From positions 36,356-100,355 of the forward strand of contig PKXQ01000135.1 in the NCBI GenBank assembly GCA_003132405.1: a DNA stretch of 64,000 nucleotides, given 5' to 3'. A model generated the notes under the pieces. It saw nothing but the letters and a program-made list of their open reading frames with translations, made no database searches and was not told the origin of the DNA. Origin of the DNA: Acidobacteriaceae bacterium. Its GTDB lineage: Bacteria; Acidobacteriota; Terriglobia; Terriglobales; Acidobacteriaceae. The position numbers and the translations under genes were made by a program. Positions 6,720 to 31,337 of the stretch are shown piece after piece; the stretch's first letter is position 1, and each line of letters opens with the position of its first letter.

Positions 6720-7475
6720 GTGGCAACTTGCGTAATTTCCGCGACAGCAACGAACGTGGTTCCTAACGTGGTTCCCGATGTTCCTGCCAAGAAACAGGCT
6801 ACCTGGGACGATTCCCAGCGCACCCTTGTTCAACGCGCGCAAGCCGGCGACGAGCAAGCCTTTGCGACACTATTCCAGATGCATCAGAAGCGCGTCTATT
6901 CGGTATGCCTGCTGATGACCAAAGATGTGGCCGAGGCGGAGGACCTGACGCAGGAAGCATTCCTGCAGGTTTTTCGCGCCATCGGCAGTTTCCGAGGCGA
7001 CTCGGCGTTCTCGACCTGGCTGTATCGGGTTGCGGTGAATACCGTGCTGATGAAGCTTCGCCGCCGGAAATCGCCGCCGGCGGTTTCTCTCGACCAGCCA
7101 GTGTCACCGGAATCGAACGTGCGGCGCGATTACGGAAAGAATGACCCGGCACTGTCGGGCGCGATTGATCGCATCGCTCTGCGTCGCGCGATCCAGGAGC
7201 TTCCGGAAGGCTGCCGGACGGTCTTCGCGCTGCACGAGGTCGAAGGCTATCAACATCACGAGATCGCGCAACTGCTGGACTGCTCCATCGGGAACTCAAA
7301 ATCGCAGCTTCACAAGGCGAAGCTGAAAATGCGCGACCTGTTGTTCCCGAAGAAAAAAGCTATTCGGCGCCGTCAAGCCGTGCAGACCTCGGAGGAGGCA
7401 TTTATTTCGCAGACCGACAGCCTAAGCCATCTATCTGGCTTGTGTGGCACGTCGTATAGCGCAGCCAGCGAATAG
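6720..7475 (+). CDS. ECF-family (RpoE-like) RNA polymerase sigma factor
   Basis: This is a 251-residue protein starting at GTG 6720 with AAGGAGAG at 6706-6713. Region 2 is clear ('AEDLTQEAFLQVFRAIGSF', 'STWLYRVAVNT'), and region 4 carries the helix-turn-helix 'YQHHEIAQLLDCSIGNSKS'. About 30 extra residues precede region 2 and about 45 follow region 4, the latter Ser/Thr-rich. Sigma factors of this class redirect RNA polymerase to a small regulon. No anti-sigma gene follows; the next genes are polysaccharide-type genes starting 39 bp downstream. It may therefore control the surface-glycan locus, which is an inference from position only. Confidence 0.93.
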   Translation: MATCVISATATNVVPNVVPDVPAKKQATWDDSQRTLVQRAQAGDEQAFATLFQMHQKRVYSVCLLMTKDVAEAEDLTQEAFLQVFRAIGSFRGDSAFSTWLYRVAVNTVLMKLRRRKSPPAVSLDQPVSPESNVRRDYGKNDPALSGAIDRIALRRAIQELPEGCRTVFALHEVEGYQHHEIAQLLDCSIGNSKSQLHKAKLKMRDLLFPKKKAIRRRQAVQTSEEAFISQTDSLSHLSGLCGTSYSAASE

Positions 7476-7514
7476 CGCACGGAGTTGGGACGAAGACCCG
7501 CTTTGAGAGGACCA

Positions 7515-8540
7515 ATGTCTGTAGCGTTAGGGGCCATTCTAGTAGTCGAGCCAGAAAGCGGGAAGGCCTTTGAGAACGTGGGCAGCCCCGAGGCCTCGCC
7601 TGTCGAGCGAGCAGACTTTCTTGCCAGCGGCCCTTTAACTTGTGTGGAAATTCTCGGACGATCGGTGGTGGAACGCACTATTGAGCGTTTCGTGAAAGCG
7701 GATGTGCAAGCGATTTCCATACAGGTGCAGACGGGCGCGCTCGATCTGTTGCCGACATTTCGGACTGCATTCAGCAATGTCGAGATTCGAGTGGCGGACG
7801 AGGTTTGGTCCGGAGTGGGTCGAACTTTGCGGGAATTTTCGGAGAGCGGCATCGATTATGCCTTCGTCTGCAAGGCGAATGCGTATCTAGAAGCTGATCT
7901 CGTCGATCTTTTTCAGTTTCATCGGCAGACGCGGCAAACGGTAACACGCGCCTCCGATAACGAAGGATTCCTCGATTTGTGGATCTCCGGATGCGGTGAA
8001 GCGGCACAAGCAATGTTTACGGATCCTGAAACTACGCCACGGACGGGCAAAGATGGCGGTTGGCCGGTGACTTATTTTGTGAAGGAATATGTCAACCGTC
8101 TAGCACATCCTCGAGATCTGCGGCGCCTGGTTGCGGATGCGTTTCGCAGACGCTGCGAAGTGATTCCAGTGGGACAGGAGATCAGGCCAGGAGTTTGGGT
8201 CGATGAGGGAGCGCAGATCGACCGGCGCGCTCGCATCGTAGCTCCGGCGTATCTAGGGTGCGGATCGGTCATCAGAGAAGATACTTTAATAACACGTTTC
8301 AGCAATATTGAGAGTTTTTCATTCGTCGATTACGGAACTGTGATCGAGGACAGTTCGATTCTTACGAATACCTATGTCGGGATTTGGCTCGATATGTGTC
8401 ATGCCGTGGTACAAGGCAACCAGCTTTTGAATCTGGCGCACAACGTCTCGCTGGAGATCGCCGACCCGAGCTTGATTCGGGCGAACATGGCGGTCAAGAA
8501 AGAGGCGAAGGGAAATCTTGCCATGATGGGTTGCGCCTGA
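7515..8540 (+). CDS. Nucleotidyltransferase-like protein with left-handed beta-helix C-terminus
   Basis: This is a 341-residue protein. The ATG at 7515 is supported by GAGAGGA (7505-7511); the frame opens earlier at TTG 7485. The N-terminal half has the outline of a sugar-phosphate nucleotidyltransferase fold ('VERTIERFVKADVQAISIQV'), but I do not see the canonical GxGTRLxPxT nucleotide motif, so activity is doubtful. The C-terminal part (about 215-320) has hexapeptide-type turns ('GVWVDEGAQIDRRARIVAP') as in GlmU or mannose-1-phosphate guanylyltransferase relatives. In this context it may act in sugar-nucleotide metabolism or as a regulator of the polysaccharide locus. It lies 39 bp after the sigma gene and is likely in its operon. 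Confidence 0.7.
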   Translation: MSVALGAILVVEPESGKAFENVGSPEASPVERADFLASGPLTCVEILGRSVVERTIERFVKADVQAISIQVQTGALDLLPTFRTAFSNVEIRVADEVWSGVGRTLREFSESGIDYAFVCKANAYLEADLVDLFQFHRQTRQTVTRASDNEGFLDLWISGCGEAAQAMFTDPETTPRTGKDGGWPVTYFVKEYVNRLAHPRDLRRLVADAFRRRCEVIPVGQEIRPGVWVDEGAQIDRRARIVAPAYLGCGSVIREDTLITRFSNIESFSFVDYGTVIEDSSILTNTYVGIWLDMCHAVVQGNQLLNLAHNVSLEIADPSLIRANMAVKKEAKGNLAMMGCA

Positions 8541-8651
8541 AACGGCCGGTTGAAGCCGTAACAGGGGAGTAGAAAAGTTGATGATGTCACAAAAGCACAC
8601 AGCTCAAGCGACGCGATGCTGGGTGCCAATTTTATATAAGGAGTAACGAAA

Positions 8652-9056
8652 ATGCATAAGAGTGGGCCCGTGATCATAATGCAGCTACCGGAAAGATTGA
8701 ACCACCGGGACGTGCAAACCTGTTCCAGCGAACTGGATCCAATCCTCGAATCCGACCGTCCCCGCGTGGTTCTCGATTGCTCCCTGGTCCAATACATGGA
8801 CAGCGCCGGAGTGGAGATGCTGTTGCGCTGTGTGCAAGAAGCGATGAAGCGCGATGGAGATCTGAAGCTGGCTGCGATTTCGCCCGCCGCGGCAACGATT
8901 CTGGAACTGATGCGAGTCGACCGCTTGTTCGAAACCTTTGAGACGACTGACGAAGCGGTGCAAAGTTTCCACGCTTTCACTATGCCCGCAATTCCGCAAA
9001 CCGAGCCACTACCTGGCGTATACGGAGCTCTGGCGGATCTCAAGGCCGCTAGCTAA
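8652..9056 (+). CDS. STAS-domain protein (anti-sigma factor antagonist type)
   Basis: This is a 134-residue protein starting at ATG 8652 with AAGGAG at 8638-8643. The STAS fold is seen from residue 5 to about 110, with the phospho-acceptor motif 'YMDSAGVEMLL' placing the target serine at S51, as in SpoIIAA. Such proteins bind anti-sigma kinases of the SpoIIAB/RsbW kind or act as partner-switch modules. No RsbW-like kinase lies nearby, so its partner is elsewhere. Its place between the beta-helix protein and the glycan genes suggests post-translational control of polysaccharide production, as partner-switching modules do in some biofilm systems. That link is inference. Confidence 0.85.
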   Translation: MHKSGPVIIMQLPERLNHRDVQTCSSELDPILESDRPRVVLDCSLVQYMDSAGVEMLLRCVQEAMKRDGDLKLAAISPAAATILELMRVDRLFETFETTDEAVQSFHAFTMPAIPQTEPLPGVYGALADLKAAS

Positions 9057-9117
9057 TCGCGATCTGTCGAATCGATGAATCGATGGGGCGCAAGAGACGC
9101 GAACGCGGGAGATAAAA

Positions 9118-9609
9118 ATGACGCTGCGGCACAAGATACTGGCACATGTCGTTTGGAGCGGATTACTGCTTTGGTCGTCATTCAGTGATGTATTACCCGC
9201 TCTGGGACAGCAAACGGCGGAGAGTAATCAAGAACAATCCAGCGCGCGGTCCGATTCCACCCAGCAACCGGTATCTGGAGCGAGTGGGCTGCCCGATAGC
9301 CCGAGCACGACGGTCGGGCAATCCTCTACGATCAAACAATCGTCGGGAACGCAAATCTTAGCCCAATCTCAGACGCCCGATTCTCCGGCTACTCCACAAA
9401 GGCCAGTGGGTACGGCCGCGGCCGAGGCTCCGTATGTGAGTGGAGTCGCTGCATCGCAACCGGCGGGCGTGGCCATTGCGCCAGCCAAACAACGCCGGCT
9501 TCGCACGATTCTGATAAGAACGGGAGCGATTATTGGCGCGGGCGTAGCCATTGGAACCGTGGTGGCGTTGAGCGAAGGCACATCGAGCAAGCCGCCAGGA
9601 GCGCACTAA
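9118..9609 (+). CDS. Small secreted or membrane protein of unknown function
   Basis: This is a 163-residue protein starting at ATG 9118 with GGGAGA at 9107-9112. A signal-like hydrophobic stretch (residues 8-30, ending near 'LPALGQ') is followed by a Ser/Gln/Pro-rich low-complexity middle. A C-terminal glycine-zipper-like membrane helix lies at about 134-153 ('AIIGAGVAIGTVVALSE'). I do not recognise a family. It sits in the same direction as the flanking glycan genes, five bases before an alternative start of the next one. It may be a scaffold or outer-membrane-associated component; no function is claimed. Confidence 0.7.
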   Translation: MTLRHKILAHVVWSGLLLWSSFSDVLPALGQQTAESNQEQSSARSDSTQQPVSGASGLPDSPSTTVGQSSTIKQSSGTQILAQSQTPDSPATPQRPVGTAAAEAPYVSGVAASQPAGVAIAPAKQRRLRTILIRTGAIIGAGVAIGTVVALSEGTSSKPPGAH

Positions 9610-9644
9610 TCCCGATGAGTATCTCGTGGGGAATTTTCTCGACC

Positions 9645-10337
9645 ATGTCAGATCAAACTGTAAAGATCATTTCTTTCTCGGGAATCGACGGAGCGGGCAA
9701 GAGCACCCAGATTAACTCCTTAAGAAGCCAGCTCGAACAGGCTGGCCTGCGCGTCAAACTGTTGACTTTCTGGGACGATGTGGTGGTTCTTCCGAAATTC
9801 CGAGAAGCTGTGAGTTACAAAGCTTTCAAAGGCGACAGGGGGATCGGCAGTCCGGCAAAACCTTTGAACCGGCGCGATAAGAATGTATCCTCGTGGCCGG
9901 TGATGGCGGCGAGATTCTTTCTTTACTTGGCTGACGCGGTGAATCTCAACTTCACGGTGCGTCGAATCCAGACAGACGACGTGGATGTGGTAATTTTCGA
10001 TCGCTATATCTATGACGAATTGGCGAACGTTGCGCTGCATCGCTGGCTGCCGCGGGCATTTGCGCGTGTGGTGTTGAAGCTGATTCCGAAGCCAGATGCG
10101 GCCTTCCTGATCGACGCCGATCCGGTTCTGGCGCGCGAACGGAAACCCGAATACCCCCTCGAATTTCTTTTGCGGAACCGTGAGTCTTACCTTGCCTTGA
10201 GCCGATTGAGTGGCCATATGACCCTGATCGATCCGCTCTCAGTGGAGGCGACGAAGGCCAAAGTGGCGGAGGCCCTGGCAAAACAATGGCCGCCGGCGCA
10301 ACCGGGCCTTTCTACGGTGTCAGTGCTTCGATCGTAA
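9645..10337 (+). CDS. Thymidylate-kinase-like P-loop kinase
   Basis: This is a 230-residue protein from ATG 9645 (an ATG at 9615 would add ten residues; neither has a well-spaced ribosome site). The Walker A motif is 'GIDGAGKST' at residues 13-21, and the 'DRYIYDELAN' motif (D119-R120-Y121) is the dTMP-kinase DRY signature. The fold is that of the dTMP kinase family, but the protein lies inside a polysaccharide gene set. Tmk-like kinases of this type recur in exopolysaccharide clusters, where their substrate is unknown. It is therefore probably not the housekeeping Tmk. A 34-residue basic insert near residues 55-90 is unusual. Confidence 0.82.
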   Translation: MSDQTVKIISFSGIDGAGKSTQINSLRSQLEQAGLRVKLLTFWDDVVVLPKFREAVSYKAFKGDRGIGSPAKPLNRRDKNVSSWPVMAARFFLYLADAVNLNFTVRRIQTDDVDVVIFDRYIYDELANVALHRWLPRAFARVVLKLIPKPDAAFLIDADPVLARERKPEYPLEFLLRNRESYLALSRLSGHMTLIDPLSVEATKAKVAEALAKQWPPAQPGLSTVSVLRS

Positions 10338-10497
10338 TGTTTTTCAGTTTGATGTTCGATCTTCGCTCGTTCCTTCCCTGCATCTAATTAATAAATTTCG
10401 AGTTGTCGAATTTCGAATTAAAGTTGCGAGCGCATAACAGCAACATCTTTAGGCGCTACCTCATCGAAGTTAGACCGATGGTGAGGGGGGGAGAAGA

Positions 10498-12174
10498 ATG
10501 AAGATTTGTCTGGTGACCAGTTTTCCGCCGAGCCACGGAGGACTCAGTGAATATGGACTTCATATTGCGCAGGAGTTGCAGCGCAATCCGTTTTTAAGCC
10601 TTACCATCCTCGCCGATAAAATTGACAGCGGGCAACCGGAACTGCCGGAGTTCTCCGTGCAACGCTGCTGGTCGTTTAATGATCCCGGGAGCGTGGGCAG
10701 CATCATCAAGGCCATCCGCGAACTGAAACCCGACGTCGTGTGGTTCAATCTGCTGTTCAGCACGTTCGGCCACAACCCAGTAGTTGCTTTCTCTGGCCTG
10801 ATGACACCGCTGCTGGCGCGGCTGAATGGCTGCTACACGCACGTCACGCTGCATCACCTCATGGATACTGTCGATTTGCAAGATGCTGGCGTGCGCTTTC
10901 CGCGAACCTACCGTTGGGCGGGTGCTTTGGCCACGAGAATTCTGCTGCTGTCGAATTCCGTATCGGTGCTTATGCCGGGATATCGCAAGATCCTGGCGGA
11001 AAAATATGGCAGCGACAATGTGCATGTGCGATCCCATGGCATTCTGGCGCGGCGGCCGGAGTCACCTGACTTTTCGCGGCGCGGAAATCCCGAACATCAA
11101 ATTCTTGCTTTCGGCAAGTGGGGGACTTACAAACGACTGGAACTGATGATCGACGCCTTCGAGATCATTGCCAAGAAGGTTCCGAATGCGAAGCTGGTGA
11201 TCGCCGGCGGGAATCATCCACATGCTCGTGGTTATGTCGAATCTCTCAAAGAACAGTGGAAGTGGAATACCAGAATTGAATTTACCGGCTATGTTCACGA
11301 GGACGATCTGCCCAATCTTTTCCAGAGTTCATCGGTGGCCGCGATGCCCTATTCTTCTTCGGCTGGGTGCAGCGGAGTCGCGCATCTGGCCTGCGCTTAC
11401 GGTGTGCCTATAGTGTGCGCCGACCTGGCAGACTTTCGGCAGATGGCGGAGGGAGAAGAGCTGGCGATGGGATTTTACAAGCCGGGAAATGCAGCAGATC
11501 TTGCAGAGTGTCTGATCCACTTTCTCGAAGATCCGGCGCAGCAGCAGGCTATGGCGAATCAGAATTTTTCGGCTGCGTTGCGCATGACCATGCCAAACAT
11601 TGTGCAGAAATATCTTCGCCACTTCGAGCTGCAACAACGCACCCAGGCACTGAAATATGCGGCGAGGTTGCGCAGGTTACCCAACTGGATGCCTTCGAAA
11701 TCGTTGCTGTTACGCGCAATCACGCGCGACTCGCTGAGCTGGTTTTATCGTTCGGCGATGCCGCGCACTCCGGTGAATGGCCGCGAGGGAAAGCCTTTAT
11801 TGGATGGTAACGGTAACGGTCGTGGAGAGTTGTACGGGAGTAGAACTTCCGGCAACGGTAATGGAGTAGGTGCTCGGAGCGGGGGCGGTGTGAGTCGCGG
11901 AACCTACTCCGCCGCAGGAAACGGCGGCCATACTGATTCCGATGGCGCACAGCAGGGCCAGGCGACCCAGCAAGCGTCGGCGGCGCAAGCCGCGGTTGAA
12001 ACTGGCGATGGACACAAAACCGGCTATTCCGAAGGGGAGCAGAAGGGTCGCGAAGAGGGGATTTTGGCTGCGCGGGAACTGCATCCCCACAACGGGGGCG
12101 GCAGTGATGATAAGAGTGGAGGTCGCGCTGCTCGCTCCGGGAGTAATGGTGACGGGCGAGAAGGAGCAGCTTAA
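10498..12174 (+). CDS. GT4-family glycosyltransferase with an overprinted C-terminal tail
   Basis: This is a 558-residue protein starting at ATG 10498 with a G-rich ribosome site (GGGGGGGAGAAG). The GT-B fold is recognised from 'SFPPSHGGLSEYGLHIAQEL' at the N-terminus and from the acceptor/donor linker 'ILAFGKWGTYKRLELMIDAF' (about 202-221). The donor half has 'GYVHEDDLPNLFQSSSVAAMPY'. The usual EX7E motif is degenerate ('SSAGCSGVAHLACAYGVP'). Family members end near 420-440 residues. Here residues 434-558 are Gly/Asn/Ser/Ala-rich low complexity and are encoded entirely on the antisense of the neighbouring GH71/99 gene (11797-12174). The catalytic part probably transfers a sugar to a lipid-linked glycan. 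The tail looks like read-through after loss of the ancestral stop. Confidence 0.88.
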   Translation: MKICLVTSFPPSHGGLSEYGLHIAQELQRNPFLSLTILADKIDSGQPELPEFSVQRCWSFNDPGSVGSIIKAIRELKPDVVWFNLLFSTFGHNPVVAFSGLMTPLLARLNGCYTHVTLHHLMDTVDLQDAGVRFPRTYRWAGALATRILLLSNSVSVLMPGYRKILAEKYGSDNVHVRSHGILARRPESPDFSRRGNPEHQILAFGKWGTYKRLELMIDAFEIIAKKVPNAKLVIAGGNHPHARGYVESLKEQWKWNTRIEFTGYVHEDDLPNLFQSSSVAAMPYSSSAGCSGVAHLACAYGVPIVCADLADFRQMAEGEELAMGFYKPGNAADLAECLIHFLEDPAQQQAMANQNFSAALRMTMPNIVQKYLRHFELQQRTQALKYAARLRRLPNWMPSKSLLLRAITRDSLSWFYRSAMPRTPVNGREGKPLLDGNGNGRGELYGSRTSGNGNGVGARSGGGVSRGTYSAAGNGGHTDSDGAQQGQATQQASAAQAAVETGDGHKTGYSEGEQKGREEGILAARELHPHNGGGSDDKSGGRAARSGSNGDGREGAA

Positions 12175-13614
12175 CGAACTAGGAAGGCCGGCGCAGGAGA
12201 GCGTTATGGCATTGTTGAACGCTCCCGATTGCGGCGTCGCGGTTACGATGAGCGTGGCCGATTGGCCGGAGGCAAGCGTCAGCGCAGCGGGGGACGCATT
12301 GAAGGTTACGGGATTGGTGCCGCCTCCATTACATGCCGGGGAGTAACTGATCGGCCCGGTCATGTAGTTAGCCATAGTTGGTTTGCCTATCGACTGTACG
12401 AATAACTGGTAGGTTCCGGCGGGGATTGGATAACTGCACAAGTTAAGCGAATGAAGGCCGGGGGCGAGCTCTGCCAGCTGCATGAGATCCTGGCCGTCGG
12501 TACTGATATAGACACGGTAAGAATCGATGGTGCTCTCGCTTCCAGTAATCGTCCATTGCAGAGTGCCAGAGGAAGCCGACGCGGCGACGGTAAAGCAATT
12601 ACTGATGCCTGACTCGATCTCGGTACCTTCTTCATAGTCGTTCCAGGTGACAAGTTGGACGTCGTGCAATGGCTTCGCGGCATTGTAGAGGCCGTTGATT
12701 TCAGAAAATGTCTGCAGCCAGGTCTGGCCGCATTGCTGTGACATGATCCGGTCCGAGCCCCAGGACGCCAGCGTATCGTTGAATCCTTTGTAAGTGGCAC
12801 CAACAGTTTGCTCGCTCGGGAATGTCATCCCAGTGTCGTAGAAGCTGGTGAGATAACTCATGCCGTAGTCGGTAGTGGTGGGCATTACCCACGAGTAACT
12901 GCCATCGCTTAGTGTGTGGGTAAATCCGTTGTTATTCTGGAATAGAAATGCTGGCTGCGTGCTCAGTGCAGCGGCGGCGGCATTCCAATCGATCGAGTAA
13001 GAAAAATCGATATTAAAGTTAGTGACCATAGGCTTTCCTTCGATCATCATATAAGCGGGCGAAGGAAAATAAGTTTGTTCGACGTATTGCAATTGCGCGA
13101 TCAGGGCCTGTTGCGGAGTGCATCCCTGGCAGGAGTCCCATTCGATGGCGCCTTGGTCGACCATAATCGCAAACGTAAACCCGGGATGATTTTCGGCTTC
13201 GGCCATGACGAGTTGCGCGGCCTGGTCGATGGAGTTACCGGGGCCGTACCAATCGATGATCACGCCAGTGATGCCTCGACTGATCATGTCCGTAACCTGG
13301 CGCTTGACTTGCGCGGGATCGGTTGAGCTATAGCCGACGTTCATGTGGTTGTTCTGGCCAAACCAGAGCATCAGGTGGGCGTAAATCTTGGTTGTTGCTT
13401 CGGGATAGAGCAGAGTATGAATATCGTCTTTACTGATATTTCCCGCCCCTAAATTGCCATTCGATTGGCTAACAAAGGTATTCGCGGCGCTCGTGTTATT
13501 GGAAGTTTGCGCCGCGAGCGTCGTGGTCGGCACGACGTAGGTCCCTGCCGAACACACCGCTGGCAAAGCCGTGAGTATGGCCGCAATAGCAAATTGTTTA
13601 CACATCTTTTTCAC
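11797..13614 (-). CDS. Glycoside hydrolase family 71/99-like secreted protein with membrane-anchored Ig-like tail
   Basis: This is a 605-residue protein from GTG 13614, which has GAGGG at 13623-13627; TTG 13629 and ATG 13605 are alternatives. It has a signal peptide ending 'PAVCSAG'. The hydrolase domain runs from about residue 50 to 340, with 'HMNVGYSSTDP', 'GVIIDWYGPGNS' and 'VTWNDYEEGTEIE'. The DWYG and WNDYEEGT motifs match the GH71/GH99-like superfamily (endo-alpha-mannan/alpha-1,3-glucan type). An Ig-like domain ('SLSCSFSPVTITPG'), one helix and a basic segment 'RRRRLLGRLALLCAIG' follow, ending in a short beta tail as in many acidobacterial surface proteins. It shares motifs with the lipoprotein at 27848-28810. 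It is convergent with the GT4 gene and overlaps it by 378 bp. A glycan-trimming role is inferred from context. Confidence 0.85.
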   Translation of the reverse strand: MKKMCKQFAIAAILTALPAVCSAGTYVVPTTTLAAQTSNNTSAANTFVSQSNGNLGAGNISKDDIHTLLYPEATTKIYAHLMLWFGQNNHMNVGYSSTDPAQVKRQVTDMISRGITGVIIDWYGPGNSIDQAAQLVMAEAENHPGFTFAIMVDQGAIEWDSCQGCTPQQALIAQLQYVEQTYFPSPAYMMIEGKPMVTNFNIDFSYSIDWNAAAAALSTQPAFLFQNNNGFTHTLSDGSYSWVMPTTTDYGMSYLTSFYDTGMTFPSEQTVGATYKGFNDTLASWGSDRIMSQQCGQTWLQTFSEINGLYNAAKPLHDVQLVTWNDYEEGTEIESGISNCFTVAASASSGTLQWTITGSESTIDSYRVYISTDGQDLMQLAELAPGLHSLNLCSYPIPAGTYQLFVQSIGKPTMANYMTGPISYSPACNGGGTNPVTFNASPAALTLASGQSATLIVTATPQSGAFNNAITLSCAGLPSSLSCSFSPVTITPGASSATSTLIITAAPVVGMQFPRSQNPLFATLLLPFGIAGFVSIASFNRGLRRRRLLGRLALLCAIGISMAAVSCGGVGSATHTAPAPSTYSITVAGSSTPVQLSTTVTVTIQ

Positions 13615-13961
13615 ACGTCGGGCCCTCAAAAGCGGGAGCGAGCCGAGGTTCGATTTGCTAACTCAAATCACACTTTGGCCAAGGCAGTAGGGAGGCGACG
13701 CCCGCCTGTAGATTTCCTATGAATTGGCCGGAAGGTTTGAAAAACGAGGCCAGCTTAGCAGAGGATTAGTGGTGGAGAAAGGTTACTTCGGTACGGGGAA
13801 CTAAGGTATAACTCGTGACTCACAAGATTCGAGGTCGTTGATCAGCAGTTGACATGCAATAACGACGGGCAATCGTTAGTGCATTAGCGGGTTGGGTCAG
13901 CGGCTAAGACCCTTCCTAGCTCTTGTAACCTCACCGCTCACTCAAATTTACTTTGAAGCTC
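13615..13961. other. Intergenic region, no gene seen
   Basis: No supported open frame occurs here. This stretch should hold the promoter of the GH71/99-like gene, which reads leftward. A weak dyad GGGTC...GACCC (13894-13912) lies near the end of the DUF5666 gene and lacks a T-run. Confidence 0.5.
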
Positions 13962-14987: not shown

Positions 14988-15166
14988 AGTTGCTCCCCAT
15001 TAATCGCAATCTGAAGTTTGAGACTGCTGTTGGATGCCAATTGTCGACGACAGGGTAGCCAGAATTCCAGCGAAAAAGAGCGAATGGATGACAAACAAAT
15101 TCCCTGCCCCGGCATCGAATATGGGCCGAAAATATCGTGAAAATCTAAGTGCTGGGGAATGGCTTC

Positions 15167-16357: not shown

Positions 16358-16438
16358 TCGTCACGTCGCATCGAGATATTTAAGCATTAGCGATTGAACA
16401 CAATCGTTCGAGGGCTTGCAATCGTTATTGCTGATCGC

Positions 16439-18502: not shown

Positions 18503-18529
18503 TACGTCTGGGCGGCCCTGGGTATGCTC

Positions 18530-22765: not shown

Positions 22766-23030
22766 GGTTTCACCATGCAATAAAATCTTGGGCTTACCTC
22801 CCGCATCCCATTGTTGATTTTCTGCGGTGCTTTTCAGATGCGACTCTCGGAGCTAGGTTTGCTTTCCAAGAAACTGCCTCATTATTCGCGTTCAGCTTGC
22901 CTTCCGTGCGCAGCCCTCTTCTCGCCCAGGGTTTACTGCTAGTCCGCGGTCGGACTGATCAAATTTGGAAGTAAACCTTGGGCGACCATTGCGAATCCAA
23001 ACCCTGTCTACGAAAAATGGAGCCACTATC

Positions 23031-24821
23031 GTGAGCACTGCCGAAAGTTACTCTCGTCCGATTCCGCTATTCGCCATCGTGTTGGTAGCGCTGGCGGTCC
23101 ACGGGCCTCTTTTGTTCATGCAGCTCCCCGCCGGTTCATTCGACACAAATTTCCATATTTTCTTCGCCTCGCACTACGCGAGTCACTGGTTCGATCCGTG
23201 GAACGTAAAGTGGTTTGCCGGCTTTTCGCAAACGACTTATCCGCCGCTGACGCATCAATGGATTGCTTTGCTTTCGAATGTCGTTGGTTTGAAGATGGGC
23301 TACATGCTGGTGCAGTTGATCGCGGTGATGCTGCTGCCGGTGGGCGTATTCCGTTTTGCCAAAATCTGGGTGAACGAGCGCGCGGCCAGCTATGCGGCGC
23401 TCGCCAGCGTTTTTCTTGGCGCGTTGGCTTTCCTGGTATACCAGGCCGGGCAATTGGCGACCGTTACATCGACGGCTCTCTATTTAAATGCGCTGCCCTA
23501 TCTCTACGAATGGATAACGACGGCGTCGGGACGCTCATTTCTGAAAGGGGTCGCCGTGAGCTGGACGGCTGCGGCTGCCCATCACGTTACCTTGATTTTC
23601 GGTGTGCTATTTTTCGCGCTGCCGGTGCTGTGGGTCGCGATTCTGGATGCGCGCGAGCCTGTCGTCGAGGCTGATGCGCACGATCCGGATGTTCGCGTTA
23701 GAGACGAAGGAGAACGAGTGCCGGGTGCGGTCCGTGGCGTGCTATTACGAACAGGCGCGTTTGCGTTGATCGTGGGATTGGGGATCGGATTAGTCCTCGC
23801 GCCTTATTGGCTCAGCATTCTTCGTCATCCGGTTCGGCAGATGCCGATTCCGCATGACAGCCGGTCGAATTTCCTGCTCAATTCGACTACGGCGATCAAC
23901 TACTTCGTGATTCCTTACGGAGCGTTGCTTCTCGGGATTCCGTTCATTCTGGTGCGGGGCGCGAGGGCGCGGCGTTTGCGGCCGCTGCTGTTTGGCTTCT
24001 GGCTCGCATTTATTTTTGGATTAGGCGGCACCACTCCATTGCCACGATGGTTGCTCGGACGGGCCTTCGAGATTTTGACCTTCGAGCGCTTTACTTTCTG
24101 GGCAACGCTGCTGGCTATGCCGCTTTTAGGCGCTGTGGCGGTGAGTCTGTTGGATCGCTTCGCCAGTAAGGCTGCGGCAGCGATGGCATTGGCCGCGGTT
24201 GCAACCGTAGGCGCCGCACTGTGGTGGTTGAACGCCAACCCCTATCGGCCCACCGCAATCGTCGATGTCAACCCTGTGATCGCATTCTTGAATCGCGACG
24301 GGCACGATTCTTATCGCTACATCACGCTTGGGTTGGGAAGCGAACTGGCGCAGGTTTCGACTTATACGAATGCGACCAGCGTCGACGGCGACTATAACTC
24401 GGCGCGCCTTTTGCCGGAGATGACCAATTATGGCTCGGCTCAGCTCACCAACGCCAAGTTTTATGGCTCGGCCGGAATGGCTTCGCTGCGCGCGATGCTT
24501 GAGCACGCCAGCAGATATGGCCTCAAATTTGTTTTCGTTCACGATTCGTACTATGAACCGCTGCTGACGTTTGCGGGCTGGCGAAAGATTGAGACTTTCG
24601 ACAATGGAGAAATTACTGCCTGGTCGAAAGACGATGTGCCGCCCGCTCATACGATTTCATCGGACGCGATGCCGGCGCCGTGGGAGGGTGTGCTGTGGGG
24701 CACGCTGCCCATGGGCGTCAGCTTTCTGGCAATTTTCCTGGAGTTATGGCTGCCTGAAAGACGCCGCGTCGTCGCGCCCGTCGGAGTACCGGTTCACGTC
24801 CGGCAGCCTTATGTTGCCTGA
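23031..24821 (+). CDS. Multi-spanning membrane protein, PTPS-related (GT-C-like) family
   Basis: This is a 596-residue protein. The GTG at 23031 has GGAG at 23019-23022; an upstream TTG at 22965 is open but lacks a site. About ten to eleven helices are seen. The first periplasmic loop carries 'GSFDTNFHIFFASHYASHW' and 'GFSQTTYPPLTHQ', the acidic/His and YPPL features of the 6-pyruvoyl-tetrahydropterin-synthase-related membrane family. Despite its name, that family looks like GT-C polyprenyl-sugar-dependent glycosyltransferases. A soluble domain near residues 450-540 lies between late helices. It is a good candidate for the missing polymerase or a membrane glycosyltransferase of this locus. 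That assignment is inference. Confidence 0.75.
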   Translation: MSTAESYSRPIPLFAIVLVALAVHGPLLFMQLPAGSFDTNFHIFFASHYASHWFDPWNVKWFAGFSQTTYPPLTHQWIALLSNVVGLKMGYMLVQLIAVMLLPVGVFRFAKIWVNERAASYAALASVFLGALAFLVYQAGQLATVTSTALYLNALPYLYEWITTASGRSFLKGVAVSWTAAAAHHVTLIFGVLFFALPVLWVAILDAREPVVEADAHDPDVRVRDEGERVPGAVRGVLLRTGAFALIVGLGIGLVLAPYWLSILRHPVRQMPIPHDSRSNFLLNSTTAINYFVIPYGALLLGIPFILVRGARARRLRPLLFGFWLAFIFGLGGTTPLPRWLLGRAFEILTFERFTFWATLLAMPLLGAVAVSLLDRFASKAAAAMALAAVATVGAALWWLNANPYRPTAIVDVNPVIAFLNRDGHDSYRYITLGLGSELAQVSTYTNATSVDGDYNSARLLPEMTNYGSAQLTNAKFYGSAGMASLRAMLEHASRYGLKFVFVHDSYYEPLLTFAGWRKIETFDNGEITAWSKDDVPPAHTISSDAMPAPWEGVLWGTLPMGVSFLAIFLELWLPERRRVVAPVGVPVHVRQPYVA

Positions 24822-24862
24822 GATAAGCTGCCTGAGGTAAGAGTGCTCTGCGAGAGAGGGAC

Positions 24863-26002
24863 ATGAAAACGATTTTGACTATCATCGTCGTCGCTACCGT
24901 TGTGCTGGTGGCTGTGGGATTGCTGGGCGCGGGGCAGACCAAGTCGGGGACGATTGGCTTTGCGAATGGGTCTGCGCTACCGGGGCTAACTCCGAAGGCC
25001 GACACGCCGGAGCAGGCGGTCACCAACCTTCTGAACGACGTGCAGAAGCGGCGCTGGGACGCGGCGTATGGGGCGTTGTCAAAGACCAGCGGCGTCGATG
25101 AGGAAACTTTCCGCGAAGAGTGGCAGGGCTCGAATGGCAGCTTGCGGACCTTTTCGAATCTTGAGGGTTCGGAGTTGCGTCCGGTGCATGCGACCAATGA
25201 TGACGCGCAGATTCGCGCCCGGTTGCGCTGGACTACTCCGGTGGGACCGATCGAGGATGTTCGTGACTTTCGTTTGATTCGTGAAGGCGGACTGTGGAAA
25301 GTGGTTTGGCCGAAACAACAAGTTGCGAATGTTCCGGCCCAGGTCGTGCCGGTCACTTACTTGCGGTGGGATCTAGTGAGCGGAGACGGCAAGGACGAAT
25401 GGGGTGCGCGCAACATCGATCCGCCGCACGTGCGTATTGTTTCGATGAATGCGGTCAACTCCGCGGAAGGCTCGGCGGTGATGGGTGAGGTTGTGAATGA
25501 AGACACCGTGCCGGCCTTCGTCAACGTGGGTGCCACACTGGTTGATGGAGGGGGCAATCCCATTGACGATGAGAACAGTTTCGACAAGATTGATCACGTG
25601 CTCTTGCCGAAGCAAATCACACCCTACCGCATAGACTTTCCGGGCATCGACTTGAGCAAGGTTAAGAATGTTCGTATGGACATCAAGGCGTCGCTGGTCC
25701 CGGCGTCGGCCGACCCGGTGATTGGAGTGATGAATCAGAAGATTGACGCGGATGTTCAGGGCAGAAGCGTTCTGCGCGGAGAATTGCTGAATCAGAGCGG
25801 CCAGACGGTCAACATTCCGCATGTGATTGCGAGCTTCTATGACAACAACGGCAAAGTGATCTGGGTCTCGGATGGCTACGTGGATCGGGCTTTACTGCCT
25901 GAAACGTCGGAGCCTTTTTCGGTTGACATTCCGCGCTCGCTGGCAGGAAAGGTGCAGAGCTTTCATGTTGTGGTTAATCAATACAGCCTGGGAAAATCGT
26001 AG
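24863..26002 (+). CDS. Membrane-anchored protein of unknown function with NTF2-like and Ig-like parts
   Basis: This is a 379-residue protein from ATG 24863 with GAGAGAGGG just upstream. One N-terminal helix (residues 3-24) serves as an anchor or uncleaved signal. Residues 45-150 have an NTF2/DUF4878-like outline ('PEQAVTNLLNDVQKRRWDAA', 'DFRLIREGGLWKVVWPK'). Two beta-sandwich repeats follow: 'VRIVSMNAVNSAEGSAVMGE' and 'DVQGRSVLRGELLNQSG' each open an FxLYD-like unit. It lies 41 bp downstream of the PTPS-related gene and ends two bases before the next ATG. A three-gene operon is likely. Periplasmic; function not known. Confidence 0.72.
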   Translation: MKTILTIIVVATVVLVAVGLLGAGQTKSGTIGFANGSALPGLTPKADTPEQAVTNLLNDVQKRRWDAAYGALSKTSGVDEETFREEWQGSNGSLRTFSNLEGSELRPVHATNDDAQIRARLRWTTPVGPIEDVRDFRLIREGGLWKVVWPKQQVANVPAQVVPVTYLRWDLVSGDGKDEWGARNIDPPHVRIVSMNAVNSAEGSAVMGEVVNEDTVPAFVNVGATLVDGGGNPIDDENSFDKIDHVLLPKQITPYRIDFPGIDLSKVKNVRMDIKASLVPASADPVIGVMNQKIDADVQGRSVLRGELLNQSGQTVNIPHVIASFYDNNGKVIWVSDGYVDRALLPETSEPFSVDIPRSLAGKVQSFHVVVNQYSLGKS

Positions 26003-26003
26003 A

Positions 26004-26978
26004 ATGCGGCGCGAAAACCATCCCGGTCGTGGTTTCGCCGCAGCGGCTAAAGCCGCAGTCGGTAGGGAGTCCGGTAGCGCAGCGGTGAACCGCTGCGCCA
26101 CCCAAAACCGAATACGGTTGGCTTTCTATTTTTGCCTGAGTGTTGCTCTAAGCACATTGAGCGCTAGCATCTCGGCCGCGCAGGATCTACGCGCCCCGTC
26201 CGCGGTGACGGCTGGCGAGGCCGTGTCGATCTCGACGACGGGGAGTGGCAAGGCAACGTTCTATCTGGTTGGTCCGGGAGTTTCGAATAAGAGTGATGTT
26301 GCGCTGGGAAACGAGATTTCACTTCGCGGTCAGGATTTGCGCGATGCGGGACAATATTTCGCCATTCTTTGTTCTGACAGTTGCCACAGCGCATCGTTCT
26401 TTGTGGCTCCGGCGAAACCGGCTAGCCTCGCTTTTCTGGTGCACCCTTCGCGCGTGCCGGTGGCGGCGAGTGATGCGGTCAGCGGCGTTGCGCTTGCCTT
26501 TGATCAATTTGGCAATCTGAATCTCGATCCCGGCACGATCAACTTCCAGTTGACCGCGGGCAAGACTTCCCTGCTCTCGCGGGATGTTGCAGCACATGAT
26601 GGCGTCGCGTGGTTTCGGACTACATCCGGCAAGTCTGCCGGACCGCTGCAAGTTGTGGCGAGTATCGGCGAGCTCTCTGCGCGACGCAACGTGCAGGAGG
26701 TTGCATCGGAGCCTTGCAACCTTCGCATCGCTGGCCAGCGCACGAAGGATGGACTAGTGGTGCAGACGGAGCCGGTTCACGACTGCGCGGGGAATCCTGT
26801 GCCTGATGGAACCATTGTTTCGTTTACCGCGACTGATGCCAGCGGAAAAAGCACTGTGGATGCGCCTATTAAGCACGGCATCGCACGCGCCGAGATTGCA
26901 GCTTCGGGCCCCGTGGTGGTTTCGGTTGCGTCGGGAGTGGCCATGGGCAACGAACTGCACATCGGAGGAGGGCAATGA
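26004..26978 (+). CDS. Secreted Ig-like protein of unknown function (start uncertain)
   Basis: The frame from ATG 26004 gives 324 residues, but two REP-like dyads (26043-26098) fall in its first 32 codons. The true start may therefore be GTG 26085 or TTG 26118. The hydrophobic core 'LAFYFCLSVALSTLSASISA' is a signal peptide in any case. The mature part is beta-rich with three sandwich-like units ('PSAVTAGEAVSISTTGSGKA', 'PASLAFLVHPSRVPVAA', 'NPVPDGTIVSFTATDASG'). These resemble bacterial invasin/Big_1-like Ig domains, and four conserved-looking Cys are present. Probably exported to the surface or periplasm as part of the operon starting at 23031. Confidence 0.65.
   Translation: MRRENHPGRGFAAAAKAAVGRESGSAAVNRCATQNRIRLAFYFCLSVALSTLSASISAAQDLRAPSAVTAGEAVSISTTGSGKATFYLVGPGVSNKSDVALGNEISLRGQDLRDAGQYFAILCSDSCHSASFFVAPAKPASLAFLVHPSRVPVAASDAVSGVALAFDQFGNLNLDPGTINFQLTAGKTSLLSRDVAAHDGVAWFRTTSGKSAGPLQVVASIGELSARRNVQEVASEPCNLRIAGQRTKDGLVVQTEPVHDCAGNPVPDGTIVSFTATDASGKSTVDAPIKHGIARAEIAASGPVVVSVASGVAMGNELHIGGGQ
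26043..26098. repeat. REP-like double hairpin
   Basis: Two dyads stand side by side: GCGGCT/AGCCGC around AA (26043-26056) and GCGCAGCGG/CCGCTGCGC around TGAA (26077-26098). The first shares the GGCTAAAGCC core with the element at 32226-32279, so this looks like a dispersed family in this genome. Confidence 0.6.
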
Positions 26979-27091
26979 TTTGCGCTGGCGACATTTCATA
27001 TCACGATGATTCCGACGTCGTTCCTGACCGCGATGAATACGATTGCGATGGCGATGATTGGCCTGACTCTGATTGCGATCACTACGATTAG
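26975..27091 (+). other. Possible Asp-rich mini-ORF with strong ribosome site
   Basis: ATG 26975 overlaps the stop of the preceding gene (ATGA) and is preceded by GGAGGAGGG (26964-26972). It encodes 38 residues rich in Asp ('DRDEYDCDGDDWPDSDCDHY'), then TAG. The same Asp/Cys/Tyr pattern continues after the stop ('CDYGCYDG'), so it may be the broken or decayed start of a larger Ca-loop-like protein. Alternatively, it is chance. Confidence 0.25.
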
Positions 27092-27230
27092 TGTGACTAC
27101 GGTTGCTATGACGGTAAGTTATGCTCGCCGTCGACGAGTGCCTTCGATCAGGTCATCGATTCGTTCGCGCGCGTCTTCGGGCATTACTCCGCAGATCACT
27201 CCGCGCGCCATTTCGCGCATCATTTCGCGG

Positions 27231-27722
27231 ATGACGGCATTGCTGGCCGCATCGGTTTTCCTTTTCTGCGCGCCACGATCCAATGCCGCGGTAAATGTCG
27301 ACATGAGTGTAAGCCACGCCGGTCCACGCGCCGTCGAACCCCTCTTGGAGCGTGGGATTCTACGCGATTACCGCATCGCCTGGATAAGCCTGGCACACGC
27401 TCTGGAATTCAACGCGGCTGATGCTTTGTCCGGCCCATTCGTTTCTACGGCGAGAGATACGTTGATGAATAACGTCTCCAGTCAGCGACGTTCTGGCCTC
27501 AGCACGCGCTATCTGAATCAGAATCACAAAGTCGAGGCTGTTTATTACGCGCCCGAGGGCGACGTCATCGAATTGCACGATGCGGCGGATTATCAACTGC
27601 AAATTTTGGACGGCGGGAAACTGATTCACGATGAGCATGTCGTGATGCACTATGTCGTGTTGATGACCCCGGCTGCCGATCATTGGGTAGTTCGACAATT
27701 GCAAGCGGTCCCTCAGTTTTGA
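27231..27722 (+). CDS. Small secreted protein of unknown function
   Basis: The open frame starts at 27006, but the sequence before residue 76 is low-complexity Ile/Thr/Arg. ATG 27231 begins a clean signal peptide ('MTALLAASVFLFCAPRSNA'), giving 163 residues. No strong ribosome site precedes either start. The mature protein has 'GPRAVEPLLERGILRDYRIA' and 'EAVYYAPEGDVIELHDAADY'. It looks like a small alpha/beta domain of about 140 residues. I do not recognise a family. It follows the Ig-like protein on the same strand and precedes the GH71/99-like lipoprotein. Confidence 0.55.
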   Translation: MTALLAASVFLFCAPRSNAAVNVDMSVSHAGPRAVEPLLERGILRDYRIAWISLAHALEFNAADALSGPFVSTARDTLMNNVSSQRRSGLSTRYLNQNHKVEAVYYAPEGDVIELHDAADYQLQILDGGKLIHDEHVVMHYVVLMTPAADHWVVRQLQAVPQF

Positions 27723-27847
27723 TTCGGTCGCGCGGCTGCCACTCGAGATTGATTTACTAGCTCTGCCTACAGGATCGCCCTACCAACCGCCGCTTTCCTC
27801 GCGGCATCTGACTTACAAAGGACAAGTTGAGAAGAGGGAACCTTCGA

Positions 27848-28810
27848 GTGCCAAAGGTATTGATCGTATTCGCCATAGCGTGGTTTGTGATCGCCAGCGG
27901 ATGTACGGCTCCGAGCGTTCGCTCGTCGCTGCGGCAAAATGCGATGGCCCCTGGGCAGGCTCCGAAGGTGCTCGCCGTCTATATGCCCTGGTTTGGCGAT
28001 CACACACATATAGACGTTGGTTATTCGAGCCAGGATCCCGGGGTTCTTAAAGGACAAATTCAACAGGCGCGTAAACAGGGGATTTCGGCTTTCGTGGTCG
28101 ACTGGTACGGCGAGAGCCGGCCTTACTCCGATCATAATTTTGGCGTGCTGCAAGAGGTGGCTAGCGAAAACCACTTTCAAGTCGCGCTGCTTTACAACGA
28201 ACCTGAAGATGAGGACGCGCAAGCGACCGATGAGGCCATGAACGCTTTCGACGAGGCCTATAAGGCATACATTGGGCCAGAGGCGAGGTTTCGCGACACC
28301 TATCTCACATATAACGGACGACCGATGATCTTCATTTTCCCGAAGCGCGGTCACGTGGACTGGAATCGCGTCCGCGAACATTGCAGTGGGTGGGACGCGG
28401 CGCCTTTGATCTTTTATAAGGATGACCCTCCGCCACAGTACAGCGCCGATTTTGCCGGGTCCTTCGCATGGGTGCAGCCGGGGCGCGCGGGATGGACCGC
28501 CGATGGGAGTAATTGGGGCGAAGAATATCTCGACAATTTCTATAAGGCGATGAGCAAGCGTCCTGACAAGATCACGATCGGAGCGGCATGGCCGGGGTTT
28601 GATGACTCCAAGGCGAAATGGGGGCTCAATCGCCACATGCAGAGCCATTGCGGAAAAACGCTAGATGAAACCATGAGCCTTTATCGCCGCTACTTCGACG
28701 ATTCTAATCCGCTGCCGTTTCTTATGATCGAAACCTGGAACGACTACGAAGAGGGGACGGCGATTGAGCGCCAGACGGCAGGCTGCGGCGCAAACCAGCC
28801 GCAGAACTGA
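27848..28810 (+). CDS. GH71/99-like lipoprotein (glycoside hydrolase-like)
   Basis: This is a 320-residue protein. GTG 27848 is preceded by AGAGGGA at 27832-27838; TTG 27827 is an alternative. The signal has a lipobox ('VIASGC'), so it is probably a lipoprotein. The single domain carries 'HIDVGYSSQDPGVLKGQIQQ', 'FVVDWYGESRPYSDHN' and 'ETWNDYEEGTAIE', the same three motifs as the larger hydrolase at 11797-13614. The Asp of DWYG and the Glu residues of the WNDYEEGT loop are candidate active-site residues. It ends soon after that motif with no Ig tail, unlike its relative. Two such enzymes flanking one glycan locus suggest processing of the product. Confidence 0.83.
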   Translation: MPKVLIVFAIAWFVIASGCTAPSVRSSLRQNAMAPGQAPKVLAVYMPWFGDHTHIDVGYSSQDPGVLKGQIQQARKQGISAFVVDWYGESRPYSDHNFGVLQEVASENHFQVALLYNEPEDEDAQATDEAMNAFDEAYKAYIGPEARFRDTYLTYNGRPMIFIFPKRGHVDWNRVREHCSGWDAAPLIFYKDDPPPQYSADFAGSFAWVQPGRAGWTADGSNWGEEYLDNFYKAMSKRPDKITIGAAWPGFDDSKAKWGLNRHMQSHCGKTLDETMSLYRRYFDDSNPLPFLMIETWNDYEEGTAIERQTAGCGANQPQN

Positions 28811-28920
28811 TGGCCGAAGCTTTTTGCAACAACCCAAAGCGCGCGATGGAACATCGAATACCGTCCGCAGAATAAAGCTAAATAAACTATTAGTGCGATG
28901 TGATCGAGGAGCGACCTGCA

Positions 28921-30006
28921 ATGAACGAGAACGTCAATCCGCCAAAATGTTTTCGCCTTCTATCGGAATTGCTCCTGGGTAGAACTGATAGGACTGCGCG
29001 TGCGGCGGCGGGGTTGGAGAGTCAGGACCTGGCGGAACTCACTGAGCTGGCGAACTCGCACCATGTCACCATGCGGTCGTTCCCAATTCTTCAGCAGTTG
29101 ATGGTCGACAGTGGCAATGCCGAGGGAGCGGAATTCGCGGCGAATGCCATCGACAAAGAGGGTGCACGGATCCGGCACGCGATCTCTTTCCTCGATCCGA
29201 TCATTCGCGCTTTGCAGCAATGCGGAAAAGTTGTTGTCATCAAATCTTTAGATCACTGGCCAGACTTTGGCAGCGACATCGATCTTTACGTTGATTGCAG
29301 CCCGGGCACGCCCACCGCTGAGGTGGCTGTGGTTATGCGCCGCGAGCTCGGAGCCGAAATGGCGGAGCGCAGTTGGGGAGACCGGCTGGCGAACAAATGG
29401 AACTTTATTGTTCCGGGGTTGCCGGAGTTGGTCGAGATCCACGTTGGCCGGCTGGGGCAGACCGGTGAGCAGACGACCATCACCGAATCGCTGGTTTCGC
29501 GCGCACGGACGATCGAACTGGACGGGTATCAAATTCGAACGTCGGCGCCGGAAGACCGCATGATCGTCAGCACGCTGCAGCGCATGTACAGGCATTTCTA
29601 TATACGGCTCTGCGATATCGTGGACAATGCGCAATTGATGGAGAGTGGAACGGTCGACTACATCTATCTGCGTTCGCTGGCACAGTCGGCGGGCCTGTGG
29701 GAAGGGTTGGCGACGTATCTCGTGGTGGTGTCAGACTACGTGAAGCAATATCGTGGCGAGGGAATCGACTTACCGGCGTGGGTCACGTCAGAGGCGCGCT
29801 TCGGCGGCGATCTGGTTTACTATCGGCGAAACTGGCTGCGCATACCTATCATCCCGCACGCGGCACGACTGTATGCGGCGGAGTGGAAGAGTCTTATCCG
29901 CAAGGGCGAGATTCGCAACACGCTGCGCTTGAGCCTTCTGCCTGGTCTCGCCACAGCGGCTGCACTGGAACAAAACCTCACTGGCAGCGACAAGGGAATC
30001 TGGTAG
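28921..30006 (+). CDS. NTP_transf_5-family nucleotidyltransferase-like protein
   Basis: This is a 361-residue protein from ATG 28921 with GAGGAG at 28906-28911; a GTG at 28900 is open but overlaps that site. The catalytic signature of the Pol-beta nucleotidyltransferase fold is 'DFGSDIDLYV' (G117-S118, D119, D121). It is followed by 'KWNFIVPGLPELVEIHVGRL', in which a third acidic residue may complete the metal site. Such proteins are frequent in polysaccharide clusters (PF14907-type). Their substrate is unknown. A hairpin terminator starts at the stop codon, closing this set of genes. Confidence 0.78.
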   Translation: MNENVNPPKCFRLLSELLLGRTDRTARAAAGLESQDLAELTELANSHHVTMRSFPILQQLMVDSGNAEGAEFAANAIDKEGARIRHAISFLDPIIRALQQCGKVVVIKSLDHWPDFGSDIDLYVDCSPGTPTAEVAVVMRRELGAEMAERSWGDRLANKWNFIVPGLPELVEIHVGRLGQTGEQTTITESLVSRARTIELDGYQIRTSAPEDRMIVSTLQRMYRHFYIRLCDIVDNAQLMESGTVDYIYLRSLAQSAGLWEGLATYLVVVSDYVKQYRGEGIDLPAWVTSEARFGGDLVYYRRNWLRIPIIPHAARLYAAEWKSLIRKGEIRNTLRLSLLPGLATAAALEQNLTGSDKGIW

Positions 30007-30024
30007 CGGCGTGGCGCCGCTTTT
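30005..30024 (+). terminator. Rho-independent terminator after the nucleotidyltransferase gene
   Basis: A seven-base stem AGCGGCG/CGCCGCT closes a TGG loop and is followed by TTT (30022-30024). The stem starts inside the stop codon, so this probably ends the polysaccharide-side transcript. Confidence 0.7.
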
Positions 30025-30881: not shown

Positions 30882-31295
30882 ATGACGATTCGGATTCTTG
30901 TAGTCGATGATCATCCGGTGGTGCGGCAAGGGCTAAGAACCTTGCTGGAGGGTCAATCGGGCTGGGAAGTCGTGGGGGAAGCTTCCGATGGATTCGAGGC
31001 TTTGAATAAGGCCGACAGTCTGCAGCCGGACGTGGTGGTGCTTGATGTAACCATGCCCAAGATGCATGGATTGGAAGCTTGCCGCCGGCTGCGGCAGTCG
31101 ACTCCTGCCGTTGAGGTTTTATTTGTCACGCAACATGATTCTCCGCAGATGCTGCGGGAGGCGCTGGATGCAGGCGCCAGAGGTTACGTGGTGAAATCCA
31201 ATGCCGCGCGTGATTTGTTGGAAGCGGTAGAAGCAGTAAGTCAACACAAAGTATTTGTAGCGCTAGCTCGTCGCGACACTCTAACTGCGTCATGA
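30882..31295 (+). CDS. Receiver-only response regulator (NarL-type receiver)
   Basis: This is a 137-residue protein starting at ATG 30882. The receiver is typical: 'ILVVDDHPVVRQGLRTLLEG', D55 in 'VVVLDVTMPKMHG', 'VLFVTQHDS', and 'GARGYVVKSNAARDLLEAV' with the conserved lysine. These features match the NarL/FixJ receiver closely, yet the chain ends where the linker to the LuxR HTH would begin. It lies 42 bp before a full-length NarL-type regulator with a very similar receiver, so it may be a duplicate that lost its output. If so, it could compete for the kinase. Confidence 0.9.
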   Translation: MTIRILVVDDHPVVRQGLRTLLEGQSGWEVVGEASDGFEALNKADSLQPDVVVLDVTMPKMHGLEACRRLRQSTPAVEVLFVTQHDSPQMLREALDAGARGYVVKSNAARDLLEAVEAVSQHKVFVALARRDTLTAS

Positions 31296-31337
31296 GGGTA
31301 AGACAGCAGTCACTGTCTAACCCTAAAAGGGGCTGTC

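Follow-up and report, generated by a model that had tools for sequence, protein, structure and literature searches.

A conserved gene module around a TPR-barrel protein in one family of Acidobacteriota, a candidate for envelope-spanning glycan export

The DNA analysed here (the window) is a stretch of 64,000 nucleotides from the genome of an Acidobacteriaceae bacterium (source genome G000, contig C98, positions 36356-100355). Between positions 6720 and 30006 it carries a locus with a tetratricopeptide repeat (TPR) protein ending in a predicted outer-membrane barrel, a Wzx-type flippase with an extra domain and a membrane protein resembling glycosyltransferases of the GT-C type. With a probability of roughly 0.6, this locus represents, as one of two copies in G000, an envelope-spanning module for glycan assembly and export that occurs in one family of Acidobacteriota. 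The evidence obtained consists of the gene set, its synteny and co-occurrence across genomes, congruent gene trees, the predicted fold of the barrel and the conserved carboxylates of a hydrolase; the glycan product, the direction of transport, the order of the steps and the roles of every enzyme and of the extra flippase domain are what we infer. The product would be a surface polysaccharide. A first-pass annotation had proposed an unassigned surface-polysaccharide system with a TPR-barrel exporter at this position. All genes it named were confirmed as open reading frames (ORFs), and a conserved, unassigned module with a TPR-barrel, whose best structural matches are PelB and PgaA, is supported; the extra domain of the flippase, the second genomic copy and the GT2 genes of sister copies had escaped it.

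Co-occurrence and synteny of the genes across genomes exceed chance. In searches of 120 genomes of the family, the flippase was found in 60 and the GT-C gene and the barrel domain (positions 18533-19690 of the window) in 59 each. All three were present in 57 genomes and all three absent from 58, with five discordant genomes (G003, G012, G037, G042 and G057); a few of these counts include partial or weak matches (those of the flippase in G042 and G090, of GT-C in G037 and G058 and of the barrel in G057). Fisher P values calculated for the co-occurrence take no account of kinship and are therefore not read as probabilities. On shared contigs, barrel and GT-C genes were at most 5.05 kb apart in 48 of 48 pairs, flippase and GT-C at most 20 kb in 47 of 48, and flippase and barrel at most 20 kb in 48 of 49, measured from midpoint to midpoint with the second G000 copy counted. 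Pairs split over different contigs numbered 11, 11 and 9, respectively.

Gene content was counted in 29 regions picked by their flippase, the window included, at a query cover of 30% and E-values up to 1e-6. The genes p379, p368 and p238 were each present in 28 regions, and the barrel and GT-C genes in 27. A further set of 80 loci was picked by GT-C from named genomes (80 kept of 151 relatives); barrel and GT-C genes were divergent and less than 7 kb apart in all 59 loci holding both. The low counts in this set of STAS (14), Tmk (9) and the small protein hyp163 (12) arise at least partly because the flanks end at 10 kb. A compact form of the module is found in G103, with Tmk, the small protein, the flippase tail domain, flippase, STAS, nucleotidyltransferase-like (NTase-like), GT4 and barrel genes on one strand and GT-C, p379, p368 and p238 in the opposite, divergent arm; purine genes adjoin. 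Trees of six genes gave distance correlations r from 0.57 to 0.95, and for each of the 15 pairs none of 2000 permutations was as high. Alignment A1 held 26 of the 29 regions (without G033, its ORF not being called; G041, with no GT-C in the stretch; and G106, cut at the stretch end) and A2 26 of 27 barrel ORFs (G033 spans two stretches). L015 was omitted from A3 for an internal stop, and L065 from A6, for unknown residues, and from A10. The search for gene set and order across Acidobacteriota genomes, proposed in the first-pass annotation, thus yielded a module conserved within one family. Its membership proved narrower than first listed: NTP_transf_5, DUF5666, a 402-residue TPR protein (TPR402) and an ECF sigma factor are not core, because they occur in only 15, 15, 15 and 11 of the 29 regions.

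At phylum level, GT-C was found in 8 of 396 genomes, six of them in the family (E below 1e-200) and two outside (weak, E 3e-10 and 2e-4), and the tail domain also in 8 of 396, seven in the family and one outside (E 2e-14). The barrel was found in 14 of 299 genomes of the class, all within the family. Around the three outside matches no module was found in the 12, 12 and 7.3 kb searched with window proteins, a search that distant relatives could escape; one of these neighbourhoods returned the GT-C match itself and two returned nothing. The 80 named loci are all labelled Acidobacteriota except L161 (Rhodanobacteraceae), whose gene order is acidobacterial and which is likely a mis-binned contig. 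The module is present in cultured strains, among them Terriglobus albidus DSM 26559, Acidipila rosea DSM 103428 and Acidobacteriaceae KBS 83. Extra GT-C paralogues were seen in L195 (G384:C28) and L197 (G040:C2), where a GT4 and a distant GT2 match lie close by but the other parts of the module are lacking.

A second module set was found in G000 itself on contig C93 (L031 and L032, G000:C93:23000-56426), with 38-65% identity gene by gene. Whole-genome searches for flippase, GT-C and barrel returned two places each, the window locus and C93. The C93 copy carries a GT2 gene of the PgfS/ArnC-like type; neither an NTase-like nor a separate GH71-like gene was found within the 33 kb examined. The nearest tree neighbour of the window copy was G006 for all seven genes, that of the C93 copy G082 for six genes and G119 for p238, the G082 ORF being absent from that tree. 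Because the gene trees place the window and C93 copies with different neighbours, two subtypes coexist. Gene absences in G000 are not final, since the genome is 88.84% complete.

Twenty proteins of the region were scanned against Pfam, and NCBIfam models were used in addition, with matches reported at E-values up to 0.1. ECF sigma, STAS, thymidylate kinase, glycosyltransferase group 1, DUF5666, TPR and Polysacc_synt flippase families scored over the Pfam cut-off, and NTP_transf_5 (PF14907) exactly at it with 31.2 bits. The barrel protein (18530..22780, reverse strand), whose TPR families are over the cut-off, measures 1416 residues from the first possible start (1411 in the first-pass annotation). 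It consists of a TPR scaffold of about 1000 residues and a C-terminal barrel ending in Phe, modelled by AlphaFold2 with 16 strands and a pLDDT (predicted local distance difference test) of 85.6. TPRs followed by a C-terminal 16-stranded outer-membrane barrel, as predicted here, are the layout of exporters of the PelB, PgaA and BcsC kind. Foldseek initially ranked AlgE and a chitoporin at the top; the lead of PelB and PgaA stems from a second look, in which they were the best VIA structural rows and BcsC tied with porins. This comparison with BcsC, PgaA and PelB had been put forward along with the initial proposal, and it favours two of the three. Identity to the structural matches was 7-9%, and the barrel profile matched only a designed TPR protein among PDB sequences (E 0.009). 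By its predicted fold, the barrel may export polysaccharide as PelB and PgaA do.

The flippase domain (17168..18502, reverse strand) forms the N-terminal 445 residues of an ORF at 16439-18502. It matched Polysacc_synt (PF01943) with an E-value of 3.8e-12 and 46.7 bits against a cut-off of 28.2, which places it with the MOP/Wzx-type flippases; its profile found no PDB sequence at E up to 0.01. Behind it in the same ORF lies a domain of about 240 residues (16439..17167, reverse strand), weakly ParB/sulfiredoxin-like and with the motif D/E-GNHR; in 7 of the 29 regions this domain has its own neighbouring ORF. Alignment A5 combined tail domains from 16 fusions and 7 separate ORFs. A Pfam scan of 23 tail domains gave no credible family (best E 0.057), and the best PDB sequence match of the profile was ribosomal protein S21 (E 0.49). 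The domain may serve as a nucleotide-dependent switch or as a kinase. The words flippase and polysaccharide are absent from the text of a survey of the ParB/sulfiredoxin fold (PMC12704722); if the assignment is true, a ParB-like domain on a flippase would carry a nucleotide-switch fold into glycan transport.

The GT4 glycosyltransferase (10498..12174, forward strand; Glyco_trans_1_4, E 3e-20) was present in 22 of the 29 regions and had no transmembrane (TM) segment in the hydropathy scan, by which the TM segments were predicted. The 3' end of its ORF, coding for a Gly-rich tail, shares 378 bases (11797-12174) with the antiparallel ORF of the GH71-like protein; tblastn matches of the two genes overlap also in G006, G048 and G056. 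The GT-C-like membrane glycosyltransferase (22965..24821, forward strand) has about 10 predicted TM segments and an invariant D60-x-N62-x-H64; its profile reached an E-value of only 0.28 against PDB sequences. A GT2 gene was found in 12 of the 29 regions, seven PgfS/ArnC-like (below the cut-offs of those models) and five that we label Dpm-like; at the window copy no local match was obtained. GT2 enzymes of the PgfS, ArnC and Dpm types produce the polyprenyl-phosphate sugars that GT-C enzymes use as donors, and a part for Wzx-type flippases has been suggested in transmembrane glycosylation systems of GT-A and GT-C enzymes (PMC8035078). The GT2 genes of sister copies therefore point to polyprenyl-phosphate-sugar chemistry.

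Two hydrolases accompany these enzymes. The first, GH71/99-like (11797..13629, reverse strand; GH71 E 6e-6), carries the motif TWNDYEE and, at residues 504-610, a 'lipo-invert' putative C-terminal anchoring domain (NF058595, E 1.6e-13, over the cut-off). The second, GH99-like (27827..28810, forward strand; E 7.5e-8), has the lipobox pattern VIASGC. Four names in the locus are weaker because their Pfam scores lie below the cut-off: GH71 (25.8 versus 34 bits) and GH99 (32.3 versus 33 bits) for the hydrolases, PTPS_related (13.7 versus 26.4 bits) for the GT-C-like protein and left-handed beta-helix (16.7 versus 54 bits) for the NTase-like protein. Support for naming these proteins hydrolases comes from a profile of 24 relatives, which matches the GH99 endo-alpha-mannosidase structure 4acy at E 6e-9. 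TWNDYEE is invariant in all 24 and aligns to SFNEWHE of 4acy; the carboxylate pair of GH99 and GH71 is thus found in a WN(D/E)xxE motif, and its residues we take to be catalytic. Each hydrolase was found in 20 of the 29 regions, counts that are not independent as the two cross-match.

Put together, these components suggest the following scheme. The cytoplasmic GT4 would build the glycan, with priming or assistance from the Tmk-like kinase and NTase-like proteins, and the MOP flippase would carry lipid-linked material across the inner membrane under control of its ParB/sulfiredoxin-like domain as a nucleotide-dependent switch or kinase. The GT-C enzyme would add periplasmic sugars from polyprenyl-phosphate donors made by the GT2 enzymes; binding and trimming of the chain may fall to the three predicted secreted proteins together with the hydrolases of GH71/99 type. 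The TPR scaffold would then guide the chain to the outer-membrane barrel and out, in the manner of PelB and PgaA. More tentatively, and at less than even odds, the module represents one more class of TPR-barrel secretion in addition to those for cellulose, poly-N-acetylglucosamine (PNAG), alginate and Pel, dependent on a flippase and not on a synthase, with a ParB-type-gated MOP flippase and a periplasmic GT-C enzyme, and making a lineage-specific matrix glycan of abundant Acidobacteriota in soil. The module allows one to test whether a TPR-barrel can be supplied by a flippase pathway.

The same families could act in glycosylation of proteins or lipids instead of making a polymer: GT2, flippase and GT-C would form a transmembrane system that glycosylates proteins or lipids destined for secretion or for the outer membrane, with the TPR-barrel as exporter or assembler of the glycoconjugate. 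The few glycosyltransferases in the locus, the PgfS/ArnC-kind GT2 in seven regions and the three conserved predicted secreted proteins are in keeping with this, as is the Streptococcus pgf operon, which modifies surface proteins (PMC5856776). Multi-component transmembrane glycosylation combines a GT-A enzyme, a flippase and a GT-C enzyme; the module has a GT-C-like enzyme and a Wzx-type flippase, and in 12 of the 29 regions, the window copy not included, a GT2 of the polyprenyl-phosphate-sugar type. The review of such systems concerns Gram-positive cell-wall polymers, with no outer-membrane exporter mentioned in the part of the source drawn on (PMC8035078). We consider glycosylation unlikely, given that the two best structural rows of the barrel are polysaccharide secretins and that the hydrolases in the locus are of an endo-acting family type; moreover, no candidate acceptor protein was recognised, no systematic search having been made.

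A Wzx/Wzy pathway with polymerase and initiating transferase encoded elsewhere and the TPR-barrel replacing the OPX protein was rated as improbable. The Wzx-type flippase would suit it, and Wzy_C (PF04932), Bac_transf (PF02397) and Poly_export (PF02563) occur together on contigs C151, C152 and C153, with a further match over the cut-off for Wzy_C on C87 and one more for Poly_export on C73. However, C151-C153 already have OPX-family genes, no match to any of the three families was found on C98, and none of the 20 scanned proteins matched a Wzz or OPX family. The matches thus represent Wzy/OPX-type loci elsewhere in G000, whose parts are lacking here; C151, C152 and C153 hold three separate groups of this kind. 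An outer-membrane barrel in a Wzx-type flippase pathway is known from the composite EpsX/EpsY translocon, but that barrel is 18-stranded and paired with a short OPX protein (PMC9601211).

The concern that a complete bcs, pel, pga or Wzy-dependent set might lie just outside the window was settled in part. tblastn of 23 window genes against the rest of C98 returned only a histidine-kinase fragment (36-64 kb of the window lay outside that search). In the whole genome, no match was obtained for PelG (PF16933; control matched in 1 of 14 genomes) or for BCSC_C (PF05420; E. coli control matched), and the Wzy parts lie off the contig, as said. PgaB and PgaC were not named in the locus scans, and the genome was not searched for the PgaB, PgaC and PelF families.

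A strongly diverged pel, pga or bcs locus is very doubtful, although PelB is the best structural row and the functional outline is that of Pel, with GT4, a multi-spanning protein, a TPR-barrel and a hydrolase. PelG is missing as a match to the flippase as well as in the genome, the best CelA match (contig C18) scored 130.8 bits where the cut-off is 699.1, and the identity of the barrel to its structural matches is low. With the Pel system of Pseudomonas aeruginosa (pelABCDEFG) the locus shares the TPR scaffold and 16-stranded barrel (PelB), a glycosyltransferase with separate membrane proteins and a hydrolase. Unlike Pel, it has no PelG match, its GT4 matches are to general GT4 families and to no model named PelF (a direct comparison with PelF was not made), and no cyclic di-GMP receptor was recognised, GGDEF, GAF and PilZ giving no match among the 20 proteins, a search that a diverged receptor could escape. 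It adds GT-C, STAS, the Tmk-like kinase and the flippase tail domain. The exporters of PNAG (PgaA) and cellulose (BcsC) belong to different settings, as the window locus has no GT2 synthase match and G000 no BCSC_C. The locus fits the TPR-barrel kind of export, apparently Pel-like in working, built from other families and not a member of Pel, with a putative branch for transmembrane glycosylation in addition. A flippase in place of a synthase, which had been presented as distinctive, is less so, for in Pel the glycosyltransferase PelF works with the separate proteins PelD, PelE and PelG (PMC12141448), a precedent for GT4 with multi-spanning partners. Glycan uptake and degradation, with the barrel as porin and hydrolases acting on foreign polysaccharide, would account for the two hydrolases and a nearby TonB_C protein, but is just as improbable in view of the biosynthetic families GT4, flippase and GT-C, a TonB-like gene in only 3 of the 29 regions and the PelB and PgaA matches of the TPR-barrel.

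Acidobacteriota are common in soil and produce exopolysaccharides. An additional TPR-barrel module in about half of the sampled genomes of the family (barrel in 59 of 120) provides genes that can be targeted directly in work on the soil-bacterial matrix. No description of it was found in the literature searched, most subscription papers lying outside the reach of the search. A 2020 survey covers five synthase-dependent polymers (PMC7112194). In the literature covered, the exopolysaccharide locus assigned in Acidobacteriales is bcs (bcsAB, bcsQ, bcsC, bcsZ; PMC9693552); the present locus shares that role as proposed here, but G000 has neither BCSC_C nor a CelA match over the cut-off. The same paper names only one study in which exopolysaccharides of acidobacteria were characterised; it dealt with two strains of Granulicella (PMC5259719). 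Unassigned 'saccharide' clusters are listed for Granulicella WH15 (PMC7074687) and were not compared with the present module.

The remaining genes of the locus are as follows. On the forward strand, the optional ECF sigma factor gene (6720..7475; Sigma70_r2, E 6e-20) is followed by that of the NTase-like protein with a putative left-handed beta-helix C-terminus (7485..8540; weak sub-cut-off beta-helix and sugar-nucleotidyltransferase matches; 17 of 29 regions), a single-domain STAS protein (8652..9056; E 8e-17; 24 of 29), hyp163, a protein of no family with a predicted C-terminal TM segment at residues 131-149 (9118..9609; 23 of 29), and the Tmk-like P-loop kinase (9615..10337; Thymidylate_kin, E 3e-11; 24 of 29), which scored 43.5 bits, below the NCBIfam dTMP kinase cut-off of 83.25. 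The DUF5666 protein (13962..14987, reverse strand; E 2e-10) has a hydrophobic N-terminal segment, and TPR402 (15149..16357, forward strand) matched TPR_17 at E 4.5e-18. Downstream of GT-C on the forward strand lie p379 (24863..26002), with an N-terminal TM segment and weakly MecA_N/NTF2-like (best E 0.03), and the predicted secreted proteins p368 (25872..26978, true start probably near 26004) and p238 (27006..27722, true start probably near 27231), both of no family; the NTP_transf_5 gene (28900..30006, forward strand) ends the locus. The p368 profile reached only E 0.24 against PDB sequences; the alignments held 21 of 26 p379 ORFs and 21 of 22 p368 ORFs.

Scans found 7 promoter and 25 terminator sites, where shuffled sequences had 9.3 (sd 3.6) and 21.7 (sd 5.2), respectively. 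A defence role was considered by a Padloc scan of five proteins, which returned no match. On either side of the module in the window (1-6384 and 30882-33483) lie genes for a histidine kinase, a TonB-like protein and a VWA protein, which recur in 3, 3 and 6 of the 29 regions; response regulators were counted in 14, possibly only because their family is large. A phosphoesterase of the phospholipase C/acid phosphatase family with InlB-type repeats (L033:11806-14229) was found inside the module or close to it in 11 of the 29 regions, the window copy not among them.

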